Shown here piece after piece: positions 1,858-23,100 of a stretch of DNA of 46,376 nucleotides. The notes beneath the pieces are model-generated. The model did not search any database and was not told the origin of the DNA. It saw only the letters and a list, made by a program, of their open reading frames with translations. The DNA comes from a virus. A program made the translations under genes and the position numbers. The stretch is from positions 1 through 46,376 of IMG/VR virus record IMGVR_UViG_3300045996_000636; one strand, given 5' to 3'. Numbering within the stretch: position 1 is the stretch's first letter; every line of letters begins with the position of its first letter.

Positions 1858-2543
1858 AGGTCCTCTCCATCTGCACCGGCATGGGCCTGCTGGATCGGGC
1901 CTTCATCGACGCTGGCTTCAGTGTGCTTCCTGGCTGCGAGATCGACGACAGCAAGCGCGCCATGTACTTGGCGCTGTGCGGGAAGTCGCCCTTGGTGGAG
2001 GACTTGGCCGACCTGCCCTTTGTCCTCCGCGGGTGCAGCCATCCGCCGCGTTTCAACGGGATCATCGGCGGCCCATCGTGCCAGTCGCACAGCAAGCTGC
2101 GCGCGATTCGCGATCCGAAGTTCCCGGACCTGACACCGTTGGTAATCGAACTGCTGGATGCCGTCGAGCACGACTGGTTCCTGTTCGAGAACGTCGTCCC
2201 CATCGACATCCCCGGGGCAGTTCACACCAGGTGCAACGCAATGCACTACTACCAGCCGCACCAGAGCCGCAGCCGGTGGTTCACCCACTCGCCGAACATC
2301 ACGCCGCCGAAGCCCATCTTCAAGGGCAACGTCGACGACCTGATGGCCTACAGCATCGTCGCCGGCCGCATCTACGGCCCCAAGCGCGGCGCGAAGCTGC
2401 AGGGCTACCCGGCAGCGGCTGACCTGCCGTTCCCCTGCATGACGCTGCAGCACGGACTGGCCGACGCGGTGCCTTACCCGCTGGCCCTGGCCTGGGCGAA
2501 CGCGATCAAGGCGTCAATGGTTGTGGGGGCCGAACTCGTATGA
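1854..2543 (+). CDS. DNA (cytosine-5) methyltransferase
   Basis: 229 residues, shorter than typical enzymes of about 300-400. The ATG at 1854 overlaps the upstream stop (ATGA). Motif I for S-adenosylmethionine is SICTGMGLLDRAF (5-17). Motif IV is GGPSCQS, with the catalytic Cys near 76. Motif VI is FENV (111-114). The QxRxR motif VIII is QSRSR (about 137-141). The C-terminus has KLQGYP and an ADAVPYPLALAWA helix like motifs IX-X. The variable target-recognition region is small, so sequence specificity cannot be guessed. No restriction endonuclease sits beside it, so it probably protects phage DNA or marks it together with the upstream GNAT-like protein. The stop overlaps the primase-helicase start. 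Confidence 0.92.
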   Translation: MKVLSICTGMGLLDRAFIDAGFSVLPGCEIDDSKRAMYLALCGKSPLVEDLADLPFVLRGCSHPPRFNGIIGGPSCQSHSKLRAIRDPKFPDLTPLVIELLDAVEHDWFLFENVVPIDIPGAVHTRCNAMHYYQPHQSRSRWFTHSPNITPPKPIFKGNVDDLMAYSIVAGRIYGPKRGAKLQGYPAAADLPFPCMTLQHGLADAVPYPLALAWANAIKASMVVGAELV

Positions 2544-4510
2544 GCGTCCCGACCCTCAATCCTTTGATCAGCCGCATCGGCGTGCCCGATGCAATCGCAG
2601 CACTCCCCGGCTGGCTCTGCTGGCGTTTCGAGTCCATCCCCGGTGAGGTCAAGCAGCGCAAGGTGCCGGTCTACGCCGACGGCTCAAAACGCCGTGGCCG
2701 CCAGGGCGCCACCGAAGACCGTGCACGCCTCGTCACCTACCGCGAGGCCGTCGGGGTCGCCATGCAACGCGGGTGGGGCGTCGGCTTCGCCCCGATGCCC
2801 GAGTGGGGCGTCACAGCCCTCGACTTCGACAACTGCGTCAGCGCCGGCCAGGTGCACCCCGACGTGCAGCGGCTGGTGGCCGGCACCTACGCCGAGCTAT
2901 CACCATCAGGCCGCGGCGTGCGTGCCTTCGTGCTCGGCCAGTTGGGCAACCGCAAGGACGCCCACGGCACCCCGTTCGGGATCGAGACGTTCGCATCCAA
3001 GGGCTTCGTTACGGTGACCGGCTCGCTGCTCGACGTGACCAAGCTCACCGACTCGCAGGACACCGTCGCCGAGGCGACACCCGACCTGCTGGCCTATTGC
3101 GCCCAGCGTTTCCAGCGCGAGGCCAGCGAGCCGGCTGAATACACCAGCGACACGCCCCCGCTCGGCCTCACCGCCACGCAACTGCAGGAAGCGCTCGACG
3201 TGCTCGACCCGTCCATGTCGCATGCCGACTGGCTGGCCGTGGGCATGGCCTTGCACCACGAGACCAGCGGCGACGGGTTCGACCTGTGGGACCAGTGGTC
3301 CGCGCCCGGCAGCACGTACCCCGGCACGGACGCGCTGCGCACGCGCTGGGACTCGTTCGGGCGTGGCGGCCAGCGGCCGACCACTGCCCACGTGCTGGTG
3401 CGCATGGCGAACGCGAACGGTGCCCGCATCGACATCGCCCAGCTTGAAGCCGGTGACGACTTCGAGGTGCTGCCCGACGAGCCCAAGGTCGAGAAGCCGC
3501 TGCGCTGGCAGATGGTCCCGGCCCACGATTTCGCCAAGGGTGCACCGCCCAAGTGGATCGTGCGCGACGTGCTGCCGCAGGCCGAACTCGTCGTGCTGGT
3601 GGGCGAATCCACCGCTGGCAAGTCGTTCATCGCGATCGACCTGTGCGCGGCCATTGCCCGCGGCGTCCAGTGGCGCGGCAAGCGCGTGAAGCAGGGGCGG
3701 GTGGCCTACGTGGTGGCCGAGGGTGGCGGCGGCTTCCGCAAGCGGATCACGGCCTACGAACAGAAGAACGGGTCGCTCGAAGACACGCCGTTCAGCGTCA
3801 TCCACGCGGCGCCCAACCTGCTGCAACGCGACGACGCGGTCGAGGTGACCAAGGTCATCGCAGCCGGCGGCGGGGCCGACGTGATCGTGATCGACACGTT
3901 CGCCCAGACCACCCCAGGCGCCAATGAGAACGCCGCCGAGGACGTGGGCAAGGCCCTAGGCCACTGCAAGAGCATCCACAAGGCGACCGGCGCCGTGGTG
4001 CTGCTCGTCCACCACCACGGCAAGGACACGACGCGCGGCGCGCGTGGCTGGTCAGGGCTCAAGGCGGCGGCCGATGCCGAGATCGAGGTGCTGCGTACCC
4101 CGGGCGGCCGCCTGCTGCGCACCAGCAAGCAGAAGGACGGCGAGGACGACCTGAAGTTCGGTTTCGACCTTGAAGTGGTGCCGGTGGGCATCGATGAAGA
4201 CGGCGAGATCGAGACCTCGTGCGTGGTGGTCGAGGCCGAGCTTCCGGCCGCCGGTCAGGTGGGCGAGGCACTGAAGCGGGCGGGGCCTGTGAGCCGCGCT
4301 GTGATCTCCGTGATGAGCGAGATCGCCGAGTCGCAGACCTCGGGCATCGAACTGAAATTCGTGGTCGAAGAGGCCGCGAAACGCTTGCCCGAGCCCGAGA
4401 ACGGCAAGCGGGACACGCGGCGGCAGCGTGCGCGGCGTGCGCTGATGGAACTGTGCGAGGGGGATTCGGCGCCGTATTTCATCGAAGACGACAGCCTTTC
4501 GATCGTGTGA
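2540..4510 (+). CDS. Primase-helicase (prim-pol plus RecA-like ATPase)
   Basis: 656 residues. The N-terminal third looks like an archaeo-eukaryotic primase-polymerase: acidic motif TALDFDNC (93-99), ELSPSGRGVRAF (119-130) and GIETFASKGFVTVTG (147-161). A PriCT_2-like helical linker follows (about 216-290; DWLAVGMALHHE, FDLWDQWS). The RecA-fold helicase has Walker A GESTAGKS (355-362), Walker B VIVIDTF (448-454) and LLVHHHGKD as sensor. It would load at the origin, unwind DNA and prime synthesis for the family B polymerase on the left arm. The ATGA overlap couples it to the methyltransferase. The iteron-like cluster begins 15 bases after its stop, a classic arrangement of initiator gene and origin. 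Confidence 0.9.
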   Translation: MSVPTLNPLISRIGVPDAIAALPGWLCWRFESIPGEVKQRKVPVYADGSKRRGRQGATEDRARLVTYREAVGVAMQRGWGVGFAPMPEWGVTALDFDNCVSAGQVHPDVQRLVAGTYAELSPSGRGVRAFVLGQLGNRKDAHGTPFGIETFASKGFVTVTGSLLDVTKLTDSQDTVAEATPDLLAYCAQRFQREASEPAEYTSDTPPLGLTATQLQEALDVLDPSMSHADWLAVGMALHHETSGDGFDLWDQWSAPGSTYPGTDALRTRWDSFGRGGQRPTTAHVLVRMANANGARIDIAQLEAGDDFEVLPDEPKVEKPLRWQMVPAHDFAKGAPPKWIVRDVLPQAELVVLVGESTAGKSFIAIDLCAAIARGVQWRGKRVKQGRVAYVVAEGGGGFRKRITAYEQKNGSLEDTPFSVIHAAPNLLQRDDAVEVTKVIAAGGGADVIVIDTFAQTTPGANENAAEDVGKALGHCKSIHKATGAVVLLVHHHGKDTTRGARGWSGLKAAADAEIEVLRTPGGRLLRTSKQKDGEDDLKFGFDLEVVPVGIDEDGEIETSCVVVEAELPAAGQVGEALKRAGPVSRAVISVMSEIAESQTSGIELKFVVEEAAKRLPEPENGKRDTRRQRARRALMELCEGDSAPYFIEDDSLSIV

Positions 4511-4524
4511 GGTGCTTATGAACG

Positions 4525-4644
4525 TGCAAATTTCAGCGTGCAACACTGCAACACGAGTGCAACGTTGCACAAATGTTGCTGTTGCGGTACCCGATTCGAC
4601 TGCAACACACGCAACATCACCCTACGGGATGTTGCAGTGTTGCA
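4525..4644. other. Candidate replication origin: TGCAAC/GTTGCA iteron cluster
   Basis: About eleven copies or near copies of TGCAAC occur in 120 bp. Forward copies are at 4525 (TGCAAA), 4539, 4547, 4558, 4601 and 4610 (CGCAAC). Reverse copies are at 4564, 4575 and 4581 (variants), 4631 and 4639. The pairs 4539/4547 and 4631/4639 are spaced exactly 8 bp, and 4557-4570 is a perfect 14-bp palindrome, GTGCAACGTTGCAC. The cluster fills the only sizeable gene-free gap on the right arm, directly after the primase-helicase. Such arrays normally bind an initiator. Confidence 0.7.
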
Positions 4645-4750
4645 TCGGACCGGGGGTCTTTGACCTCGAATGCGAAGAAAAAAGCGAGTTCGCTCCTAAG
4701 GCACTGGCCGATTCTCAATTCGCAAATTTCTGCGCGCCGCGGGGGTTCGC

Positions 4751-5197
4751 ATGAAACTTGTCGCAATCAACGAGAACGGCAAGCGCATGGGTGAAGGCCA
4801 TGGCCGAGCCAAGCTGACCGATCACGATGTCGAGCTCGTGCAGTCGCTGCTCGCGTGCCGCGACATGCTGGTCGACGAGTACGCCAAGCAAGGCCTCGCC
4901 CGCGGCCACATCCACAAGGTGCTGAACGAGCGGCAACTGTCCTACGCGTTCATCGCCGAGAAGTTCGAGGTGTCGAAGAGCCTGATCAAGGCCATCGCCG
5001 ACGGCAAGGTGCGGGCACGCGCGGCCATCGAGTGGAAGCGGGTTGGGGTGAAGACGCCGCGGTCTCACATCGCCGAGCCCGGCCGCGAGTGGGGCCCCGG
5101 CAATTGCAGCAGGCCATCAGGCCCGGGGGTGGGGGGAGGCGTCGCAAACACCTGCATGGCCTGCCTCGGACCGTTCGGGGGGTGCGAGTGCACATAG
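4751..5197 (+). CDS. Helix-turn-helix DNA-binding protein, possible late regulator
   Basis: 148 residues. The N-terminal half follows the GxxHGxAKLTDxDV...IAxxFxVSxxxIxxIxxG pattern of phage and homing-endonuclease-associated HTH proteins. The recognition helix is near FIAEKFEVSKSLIKAIADGK (about 67-86). The C-terminal tail is Gly/Pro-rich and ends in a cysteine cluster, CMACLGPFGGCEC, which may bind metal. It lies between the origin cluster and terS. Its stop codon is inside the first late-promoter-like element (the TAG of CACATAG). That position fits a regulator of late genes or a packaging accessory, but homology does not settle which. Confidence 0.75.
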   Translation: MKLVAINENGKRMGEGHGRAKLTDHDVELVQSLLACRDMLVDEYAKQGLARGHIHKVLNERQLSYAFIAEKFEVSKSLIKAIADGKVRARAAIEWKRVGVKTPRSHIAEPGREWGPGNCSRPSGPGVGGGVANTCMACLGPFGGCECT

Positions 5198-5229: not shown

Positions 5230-5994
5230 ATGACCCAGCCAATGCACCCGCGCATGCGGTTCTTTGTGACCGAGTACCTGCGCGACTTCAACGGCCGCCA
5301 AGCGGCCATCCGCGCCGGCTACACCGTCAAGTCGGCGGCCCGCCAGGCGCACGAACTGCTGCAACGAGACGACGTGAAAGCGGCCGTCGATGCTGCCATC
5401 GCCGCTCGAATCGCCGAGACCAAGGTCGAAGCGAACGACGTGCTGCGCATGCTGCTCGACGTGGCGACCGCCGACCCGAACGACGTGCTGCAGGTTCGGC
5501 GCCTGTGCTGCCGGCACTGCTGGGGCAAGGACTTCCGCTACCAGCGCACGGCCGGCGAACTGGCCCGCGACCGCGCCCAGCACCAGCGCGACGAGCTGCG
5601 CCGGCAGAAGGACGCGGACAAGGGCGGCGAGACCGACTACACGCCCACGGCCTTCGACGTGCAGGGCGGTGACGGCTACAACCGGCTCGCCGAGCCGCAT
5701 GACGATTGCCCCGAGTGCTTCGGCGAGGGCGTGCCCGATGTGCACCTGCACGACAGCCGCCTGCTGCAGGGCCCGGCCCGGCGGCTCTACGCCGGCGTGA
5801 AGACCACGCAGAACGGCGTCGAGGTGAAGCTGCGCGATCAGGACAAGGCCGTCGAATTGCTCGGCCGCCACCTGGCGCTGTTCGCTGATCGCGTGGTGGA
5901 CACAGGCGAGGCCGATCTCGCTGCCGCCGTGCTGGCCGCACGCAAGCGCACGAAGGCGGCACCCGAGCCTGAACCCGGCAGCGATCTCTGCTGA
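5230..5994 (+). CDS. terS: Terminase small subunit
   Basis: 254 residues. The N-terminal HTH-like segment (RMRFFVTEYLRDFNGRQAAIRAGY, then SAARQAHELLQRDDV) is the Terminase_2 signature of subunits that recognise the packaging site. A zinc-ribbon-like insertion follows, with CCRHC near 95-99 and CPEC near 160-163, separated by a charged helical stretch. The C-terminus is helical and ends in a Pro/Glu linker, as expected for oligomerisation and large-subunit contact. An in-frame ATG at 5242 is an alternative start. The stop overlaps the terL start (TGATG). It is the first gene after late element P1. Confidence 0.9.
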   Translation: MTQPMHPRMRFFVTEYLRDFNGRQAAIRAGYTVKSAARQAHELLQRDDVKAAVDAAIAARIAETKVEANDVLRMLLDVATADPNDVLQVRRLCCRHCWGKDFRYQRTAGELARDRAQHQRDELRRQKDADKGGETDYTPTAFDVQGGDGYNRLAEPHDDCPECFGEGVPDVHLHDSRLLQGPARRLYAGVKTTQNGVEVKLRDQDKAVELLGRHLALFADRVVDTGEADLAAAVLAARKRTKAAPEPEPGSDLC

Positions 5995-20189: not shown

Positions 20190-23100
20190 TGGACGAGCTC
20201 GACAGCGCGATCGAGCAGACGCTCAAGACCGCCGACAAGGCGCGCATGAGCGCAACCGCTGCCGACCCGCTGGGCGACGCGGTCGATCAGGTCGTGAGCA
20301 TCGACAAGGTGCGCCGGCAGGCGTCGCTGCGCAGCGCCGTGCAGGTGAACCCGGACGAGGCCGCGCAGGCGAACAAGCTGGCCGCCTCGCGCGGCCTGCC
20401 GCCCGACGTGGTGCTGCGCAACCTGCAGCAGGTCAAGCAGGACGACGCCGCCGAGCGCGCCAACAAGATCATGGGCTTGTCGCCCGCGCTCGCCACGAAG
20501 ATGCGAGACCTGCCGTTCGCACAGGTGGCCCACGACAGCGTCGAAAGCCTGGGCGCCATCGAGTCGCACATCCGCGTGACGGGCGAAATCCGCGCAGCTC
20601 GCGGCCCGGACCCGACGCTTGGCTCGTACCTGACCGGCGTGTGGGAAAGCGTGAAGGGCCGCGCCAAGCAGGCCGACATCGGCATCTCGCTGCAGATCGG
20701 CGACCTGGCCGAGAAGTTGGGCTTCGCGCCCGACCCGGTGCGCCGCGGCGAACTGATCCGCCGCTACCAGCAGGCCGGCTCGAACGTCGACATGTCGACA
20801 CCCGAGTTCAAGAGCGACACCGCCAAGGGCATCTACGGCGGCGTGTCGTCCACGGCCAGCATGGTCGCACCGACCGCGCTGTCGATCCTGATGCGCAATC
20901 CGACGCCGGCCATGGCCGCGATGGGTGTGCAGGTCGAGGCCGAGGCCTATGGCAAGTACCGCAGCCGCGGCGCGACCCCTGGCGAGGCGCTGGTCGGCGG
21001 CGTGGCCGAGGGCGCCGTCGAAGTGCTGACCGAGAAAATCCCGATGGGGTTCATCGTGCAGAAGTTCGGCAAGGGCGGCGCAAAGGAATTCCTCGCCGGC
21101 ATGCTGATGCGCGAGGTGCCGAGCGAGCAGGTCGCGACCTTCCTGCAGGACGCCATCGACACCGCCATCGCGAACCCTGACAAGACGTGGGGCGAGTTCT
21201 GGAAAGAACGGCCGAGCGCCGCCTATCAGACCCTGATGGCGACGCTCACGCAGGCGAGCATCATGGGCGGCGCGAGCGCCACCGTGCAGAAGATCGCCCA
21301 GCGGGCCGAGCGCAAGCAACTGCAGACCGAGCAGGACACCAATGCCTTGCAGGGCCTGCTCGACCTGGCCGGCAAGGACAAACTGCGCGAGCGCGACCCC
21401 AACGCCTTCGCGTCGATGGTGCAGGCCGCGGCCGAGCAGCACGGCATGCCGGGCGAGGTCTACATCGACGCCGGCAAGCTGGCCGAAACGCTCGCGCAGT
21501 CGGGCATGAAGCCCGAGCAGATCGAGGCGGCGCTTCCGAGCGCGCGTGCCCAGCTCATGGAAGCGGTTGCCGCCGGCGGCGACGTGGTGGTGCCGATCGG
21601 CGAGTTCACGTCGCTCGTGGCCGGCAGCGGCTTCGAGCAGCAACTCGTGAAGCACGCCCGCCTGTCGCCCGACGCGCTGAGCCAGGAAGACGCGAAGCTC
21701 TTGGCGAAGGTCGACCTCAAGGCCGAGACCGAGAAGGTGATGGCGCAGCAGGCCCAGGTCGCCGAAGGGCAGGCTGTCAAGGCGCAGGTGCTGGAGCAAC
21801 TGAACACCGCCGGCCGCTTCTCGCCGGCCGTCAATGAGGCCTACGCCGACAGCGTGGCCGCGCTCTACGAGACCCAGGCCGCACGCCTGGGCATCCCCGT
21901 CGCGGAGTTCGCGAAGCGCTACCCGCTGAACGTGACCGGCGTGCTCGGGTCGGCGGCCAAACTCGACCAGCCGGCCTATCACGGCACCCATGTCCGGGGG
22001 ATTGAGCAGTTCACCACGCAGAAGATGGGCACCGGCGAGGGCGCCCAGGCTTTCGGCTGGGGCATGTACTTCGCCAAGGCAAAACAGATTGCCGAGTTCT
22101 ACCGCGAGAGCATCACCCGCATGCACCGCGCGGACAACCCGGAGTTCGCGGCGGCGCGTCACACGCTCGCTAATGAGCTAGGCGCGGTCGACTTCCTGGG
22201 CTTCGACCGCTGGCAGGACGCCTACGCCGCGCTCAAGCAGGACGGGTACGACACCGACGGGTTGACCCCGGAGCAACTGCAGCGCATTCGCGCGGCAATC
22301 GCCGAGTACGACCGCACGAACAAGGACACGAGCACCGGCCAACTCTACGAGGTCGATGTCCCTGAAGACAGCGACCTGCTCGACTACGACGCGCCGCTGA
22401 AGGAGCAGCCCGAGAAGGTGCGCAAGGCTCTCGAATCGCTCGGCTTCAAGGCTGAGGTCTATGCGGCCATCGCGCCGGACGGCAAGACCATCGCCACCGA
22501 CGAAGACGCCGGCCGGCTGCGGCGCATGGTCAAGGCGAACAATCATGACGTGAAGACGATCAAGTCGGTGCCGAACCCGATCACCGGCAAGCAGATTTAC
22601 TACGAACTGGAGCAGCGCCGCGACCTGCCCGGCGTGCCGGGTTCCGCCGACATGGCGGCCGACGAAGCGGCCAGCCGCGCGCTGTTCGCCGCAGGTATCC
22701 CCGGCCTGCGCTTCCTCGACGCCGGATCGCGCGGCGCGCAGGCGCAGGGCAAGACGCACAACTACGTGATCTTCGACGACTCGGCGGTGCAAAAGACCGG
22801 CGAGTTCTATCAAGAGCAGGGCGACTCGAAAGGCACGTTCACCCCGAACACCAACACGATCGCGCTGCTCGCGAAGGCCGACCTGTCGACCTTCCACCAC
22901 GAACTCGGGCACTTCTACCTCGAAGTGCTGGCCGACATGGCCGCGCAGCCCGACGCGCCGGCCGCCGTGGTCGAGGACATGAACAAGGTGCTCGAATGGT
23001 TCGGCGTGCCCGACCTCGCCGCCTGGCGCGCCATGTCGCTCGACCAGCAGCGCGAATTCCACGAGAAATTCGCCCGCGGCTACGAGGCCTACCTGTTCGA

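Follow-up and report, generated by a model that had tools for sequence, protein, structure and literature searches.

That an initiator can read iterons beside its own gene is a known principle. SaPI Rep helicases recognize, through their C-terminal domain, iterons that lie directly 3′ of their gene (PMC7581432, citing Ubeda 2007). In Gram-negative PICIs, rep is followed on its 3′ side by two sets of iterons, and the rep-ori segment can replicate plasmids; this organization was stated to be common to no other known replicon (PMC6092414). In pRN1, too, the origin is found on the 3′ side of the PrimPol-helicase gene, and phage BIP-1 may have a similar arrangement (PMC4234260). Private specificity is familiar among iteron origins, but how one initiator family keeps arriving at new words, with all of its sites changing together, is poorly understood.

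Here, we analyzed a window of 46,376 nucleotides (IMG/VR record IMGVR_UViG_3300045996_000636), a circularly complete phage genome whose 83-bp direct terminal repeat gives a length of 46,293 bp. Comparison with homologous loci indicates that positions 4525–4644 very probably serve this phage as its replication origin, an array whose cognate binder is the phage's own primase-helicase.

A repeat array behind the primase-helicase gene

The proposed initiator matches the Pfam families PriCT_2 and AAA_25, and its PDB profile matches are to phage primases (PrimPol domain) and to RSF1010 RepA (1g8y), the nearest solved replicative helicase. We built an AlphaFold2 model of the protein. For its C-terminal domain, the nearest solved folds are the winged helices of ORC, CAP and Fur (best Z 8.4, VIA-align), while Foldseek alone returned no significant PDB match (best E 0.5); the winged-helix assignment is based on the VIA-align matches and the predicted order of elements. 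A gene for a Mom-like DNA modification protein (1306–1857) and a C5 cytosine methyltransferase-like ORF (1839–2543) lie directly 5′ of the primase-helicase, and the array is followed on its 3′ side by a helix-turn-helix (HTH) gene (4751–5197), terS (5230–5994) and then terL. The features of the region are as follows.

2540–4510, + strand: primase-helicase, 656 aa, proposed initiator, with PrimPol, PriCT_2, RepA/RecA-type helicase and C-terminal winged helix
4247–4504, + strand: winged-helix domain (about aa 570–655), proposed reader of the hexamer (AlphaFold2 pLDDT 88, pTM 0.78)
4409–4456, + strand: likely specificity residues 624–630 and predicted recognition helix (aa 627–639); T626 and R630 in the window
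4520–4537, no strand: left copy of a flanking A/T-rich motif, GAACGTGCAAA..., unchanged between hexamer classes
4539–4585, no strand: left block, with sites at 4539+, 4547+, 4558+ and 4564−, 5/6 copies at 4574− and 4580−, and a palindrome at 4557–4570
4586–4600, no strand: spacer between the blocks
4601–4644, no strand: right block, with sites at 4601+ and 4611+ (5/6), a hairpin, and sites at 4631− and 4639−; homologues are alike
4611–4635, no strand: hairpin GCAACATC-accctacgg-GATGTTGC, from the inverted-repeat search and DNA folding
4717–4738, no strand: right copy of the flanking motif (TTCGCAAATTTCTGCGCG), from repeat listing and octamer enrichment

Seven exact TGCAAC hexamers lie within 4539–4644, at 4539, 4547, 4558 and 4601 on the + strand and at 4564, 4631 and 4639 on the − strand. 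Together with three 5/6 matches (TGTTGC at 4574 and 4580, GCAACA at 4611) and TGCAAA at 4525, they make up the eleven TGCAAC-type hexamers in both orientations that a first-pass annotation of this DNA had counted, and the 8-bp pitch it described for some sites is found at 4539/4547 and 4631/4639. The 14-bp perfect palindrome that it placed at the center, GTGCAACGTTGCAC, is present at 4557–4570 but sits inside the left block. The largest inverted repeat (15/15) joins the two array ends, pairing 4539–4553 with 4630–4644. Because TGCAAC occurs just 18 times in the 46-kb window, against 23.7 expected by chance, seven copies within the 106 bp of the array form a strong local cluster; as in iteron-type origins, an above-chance cluster of short repeats lies beside the initiator gene. 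Outside the array, TGCAAC is below expectation in the window, but 26 related records show no such avoidance of their own hexamer. Cumulative GC skew, which had been suggested as a check, does not mark the array, the extremes of the mean-centered skew falling near 76 and 30,595. Folded as single-stranded DNA, the array region is predicted to form two large hairpins (z = −5.5).

The hexamers also fall within an ORF of 78 aa (4518–4754) that begins 8 bases beyond the stop codon of the primase and runs into the start codon of the HTH gene, a position that would suit a real gene whose codon repeats produce the pattern. We give this explanation almost no weight: the ORF has no family match, and homologous arrays share no consistent open frame, L175 having none at all.

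A motif close to GAACGTGCAAAAAAWTTGC was observed on both sides of the arrays in most loci, unchanged while the hexamer word varies. Its octamers are ~80–120-fold enriched in array flanks compared with the rest of the loci, and it may be bound by a conserved protein or serve as an unwinding region. Mean A+T content is 48% in the flanks and 46% in the spacer, a modest rise over the 38% of the loci overall.

Conserved layout and changing word

Homologous loci were found as relatives of the primase, in phages and in bacterial contigs, chiefly of beta- and alphaproteobacterial origin; from IMG/VR, the best 80 of at least 570 primase relatives were kept. A word-independent search within 4 kb recovered arrays in 91 of 102 primase loci, with four spurious calls set aside. 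At least five copies of one hexamer, in both orientations and within 600 bp 3′ of the primase, are present in 69 of 80 loci, a proportion that is not an independent frequency because these loci had been preselected as array carriers within 4 kb; the same test picked out 4/151 control segments and 0/80 dinucleotide shuffles.

The layout of the array is fixed: three direct copies followed by one inverted copy are separated by a spacer from a second group, in which a hairpin lies between two direct and two inverted copies, with typical site-to-site spacings of 8–9, 11, ~15, ~28, 8–9, 21–22 and 7–8 bases (for example in L192, L194 and L199). The site order of the left block is common to homologous loci, in which the spacer is the largest inter-site gap of the array. 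The word itself is uniform within one phage and differs between phages. Loci devoid of TGCAAC show the same layout with TGCACC, CCTACT, ACCCTG, CCTTCA, TGCTTCA, CAACAT, TGCACT, CCCTTG, GCTTCA, CGAACA, CCACAC, GCCCCA and others, and 21 words occur among 80 non-redundant loci. A tree of primase-helicase residues 10–550 with 80 tips requires no fewer than 34 word changes. TGCAAC is retained in the closest relatives, and a blind DNA-pattern scan for TGCAAC triplets led to new loci encoding the same primase (L046, L060, L098 and L109). TGCAAC is not the fixed word of the family, and a lack of TGCAAC excess in homologous gaps, which the first-pass annotation would have read as a refutation, is misleading since they often use a different word.

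Genes intervene between primase and array in some loci (1.7 kb in L187, 1 kb in L216), and GB2A-type Caulobacter phages encode the C-terminal domain with no array found in the 9.8 kb examined. One phage (L212, contig positions 20868–21183) has TGCAAC sites spread over ~315 bp as several array-like groups, and locus L208 has an expanded array with 17 TGTCCC copies 302–512 bases past the primase match, which looks like a tandem duplication of the left block. The isolated Curvibacter phage PCA1 (L318, 8540–8740) has GGTTCC/GGAACC repeats just 3′ of its DNA primase gene and may represent this kind of element in a cultivated phage.

The stem of the right-block hairpin is variable among homologues yet remains self-complementary, and its apex is often of the CTTTAG, CTATAG or CTAAG type. 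A CTNNAG-like apex, which may form a special DNA TNNA loop, is found in 48 of 79 loci, so this loop consensus is tentative. Such a pattern, in which hexamers pair into two strong hairpins and self-complementarity outlives changes in the stem, could also come from a structured RNA in the primase transcript, acting as an attenuator, terminator or riboregulator. We consider this highly improbable. The region has no Rfam match above the gathering score (the two best are miRNA models far below it), no terminator-like site was found in it, and G-T mismatches in predicted stems are not in excess over A-C mismatches (51 versus 42, from a finder that also picked mixed hairpins). An RNA would need neither one word per phage nor a word that tracks a DNA-binding helix.

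Covariation between the word and the C-terminal domain

Across the 80 non-redundant loci, with word classes and register assigned partly by eye, the hexamer class is tied most strongly to the C-terminal domain of the primase-helicase and weakly to its other domains and to the HTH protein, and shows no association with TerL (r = −0.02). Given the helicase domain, partial Mantel correlations are 0.34 for the C-terminal domain (p 0.001), 0.09 for the HTH protein (p 0.08) and −0.08 for TerL. The nearest neighbor shares the word in 47/65 cases when chosen by the C-terminal domain, versus 32/65 by the helicase domain.

In a scan of 615 primase-helicase columns, positions 626, 630, 629 and 624 rank first to fourth for hexamer class (z = 11.1, 10.8, 8.9 and 7.2; median 1.9), column 626 having been spotted by inspection before the scan put it first. 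All four fall where the predicted recognition helix begins. Column 630 comes first in separating AAC from ACC words (z = 16.8, next 7.2): TGCAAC goes with RDTRxQR and TGCACC with RDTRxQH, R630 being present in 31/40 TGCAAC phages and H630 in 13/14 TGCACC phages, so that the usual residue is absent in 9/40 and 1/14, respectively. TTC-type words (CCTTCA, and also TGCTTCA, some of whose carriers are alphaproteobacterial genomes) are accompanied by S/G-N at 629–630 in 6/7 cases, and 55 of 56 TGCA words by T or S at 626. Phylogenetically independent pairs agree, with 12 for and 0 against of 13 for T/S626 with TGCA words (p 0.0005) and 6 for and 0 against of 7 for H630 with TGCACC (p 0.03).

Two phages, L011 and L223, provide a natural experiment. 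Their DNA is 92–100% identical through the helicase, 38–72% over the C-terminal domain and array, and 88–98% over the HTH gene, and the word changes from TGCAAC to CCCTTG. Judged from these alignments, this is a natural cassette swap of the reader domain together with its array. L172 and L196 show the same mosaic pattern at lower identity. Because the coding sequence of the winged helix adjoins the array, a single recombination event can exchange the two together and thereby change the word.

The same pair bears on whether the array is instead an operator through which the HTH protein (4751–5197) controls its own or late gene expression. Most loci have an HTH gene of the same family on the 3′ side of the array, but the HTH proteins of L011 and L223 are nearly identical, including their recognition region, while facing different words. 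The word shows hardly any association with HTH identity, arrays persist in loci with no detected HTH gene, and no promoter-like site was found in the region. This makes an HTH operator very unlikely. In one further locus (L015), the HTH profile match is on the + strand, and that locus was not used as evidence.

The main rival is a packaging site (pac or cos), in which the small terminase, whose gene lies just downstream, would bind the array and packaging would start there. Arrays often lie between replication and packaging genes, and those of L142 (an 8-kb fragment), L092 and L109 are immediately upstream of terS; in L142 and L092, TGCAAC arrays with the hairpin occur with no primase-helicase C-terminal domain nearby, the L092 array being 15 kb from the helicase of its contig. 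These are the loci that make packaging the strongest competitor, but its probability remains low. The word does not track TerL, and the swap and the recognition-helix columns implicate the primase. Arrays also follow the primase in loci lacking a TerL of this family within 5 kb (L240–L243, L251, L252 and L259–L262), where other terminase families could be missed.

In these comparisons, changes of the word go along with the C-terminal winged helix of the primase-helicase and with neither the HTH protein nor TerL. The match between the repeat word and the specificity of its own initiator, a mark of iteron-type origins, is seen here as covariation. Of the two binders named in the first-pass annotation, covariation and the L011/L223 swap support the primase-helicase but not the HTH protein. 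Its broader suggestion, an iteron-type origin beside the initiator, is the best explanation of an array that is conserved 3′ of the primase-helicase and covaries with the winged helix.

Proposed mechanism and comparison with known replicons

The pattern is that of an origin recognized by its own initiator helicase, with precedents in SaPIs, PICIs and pRN1, and on this ground we propose that the primase-helicase binds, opens and primes the array, where replication would start. Residues at the beginning of the recognition helix would let the C-terminal winged helix read the hexamer, and several monomers bound to both blocks could assemble the RepA-type helicase. Flanking A/T-rich DNA, the hairpin or both may then open, allowing the PrimPol domain of the same protein to lay the first primers. 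More speculatively, the two large hairpins could be priming sites, as in RSF1010.

A more general proposal, to which we give even chances, is that a large family of proteobacterial phages shares one origin chassis with a freely rewritable address word, in which residues 624, 626, 629 and 630 set the hexamer and the domain and array move as a cassette. If so, phages could take on a new replication identity with the remainder of the replisome unchanged, and so perhaps avoid being cross-initiated by co-infecting relatives or hijacked by satellites. Since the 80 loci hold 21 words in one fixed geometry and offer likely specificity residues as well as word swaps between otherwise near-identical phages, initiator-origin coevolution becomes directly testable, and the array offers a simple route to origins in uncultured phage genomes. 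As far as the literature we searched shows, what is new is the occurrence of this known principle in a broad phage family with a RepA-type helicase, a rigid inverted layout with a freely changing word, covariation at the level of residues, and the joint swap of reader and array.

Among known systems, the P4 alpha protein with ori and crr similarly combines primase, helicase and a C-terminal iteron-binding domain in one polypeptide, but has a TOPRIM-type primase, a different helicase and longer iterons (in part PMC4234260). pRN1 and Bordetella phage BIP-1 share a PrimPol-helicase with a C-terminal winged helix and a stem-loop origin directly 3′, but use an SF3 helicase and one large stem-loop with no iterons (PMC4234260). 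RSF1010 (IncQ; RepA, RepB′, RepC and oriV) is reminiscent of our locus in its RepA-type helicase (1g8y), its repeats and hairpins, and a plasmid-encoded primase acting at hairpins (PMC4234260). There, however, three separate proteins do the work and RepC reads the iterons, whereas our locus has hexamer repeats and a single polypeptide that unites reader, helicase and primase; by covariation, recognition lies in this fused primase-helicase and not in a separate RepC-type iteron binder.

The closest relatives in arrangement are the pri-rep-ori modules of SaPIs and PICIs. As described in PMC6092414 and in PMC7581432 (citing Ubeda et al. 2007), these also have a primase and an initiator helicase, sometimes fused, an origin that immediately follows the initiator gene on its 3′ side, short iterons grouped into two sets, the initiator C-terminal domain as reader, and an iteron sequence that varies between elements. 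Our locus has the same arrangement, an array of two short-iteron sets directly 3′ of the initiator helicase gene, and covariation suggests that its C-terminal domain is likewise the reader. It differs in its inverted eight-site layout with a hairpin, in its residue-level covariation and cassette swap, in its hosts, which are full-size phages and prophage-like loci of proteobacteria, and in its helicase, which is RSF1010-RepA-like while SaPI Reps are of the DUF927 or D5/Primase-Cterm type. The window is not a phage-induced chromosomal island with a SaPI-type Rep (DUF927 or D5-type): as a complete phage of 46.3 kb with terminase and head-tail adaptor genes and an AAA_25/RepA-like helicase, it would work like a PICI replicon but is not one, extending the PICI-style replicon to full-size phages.
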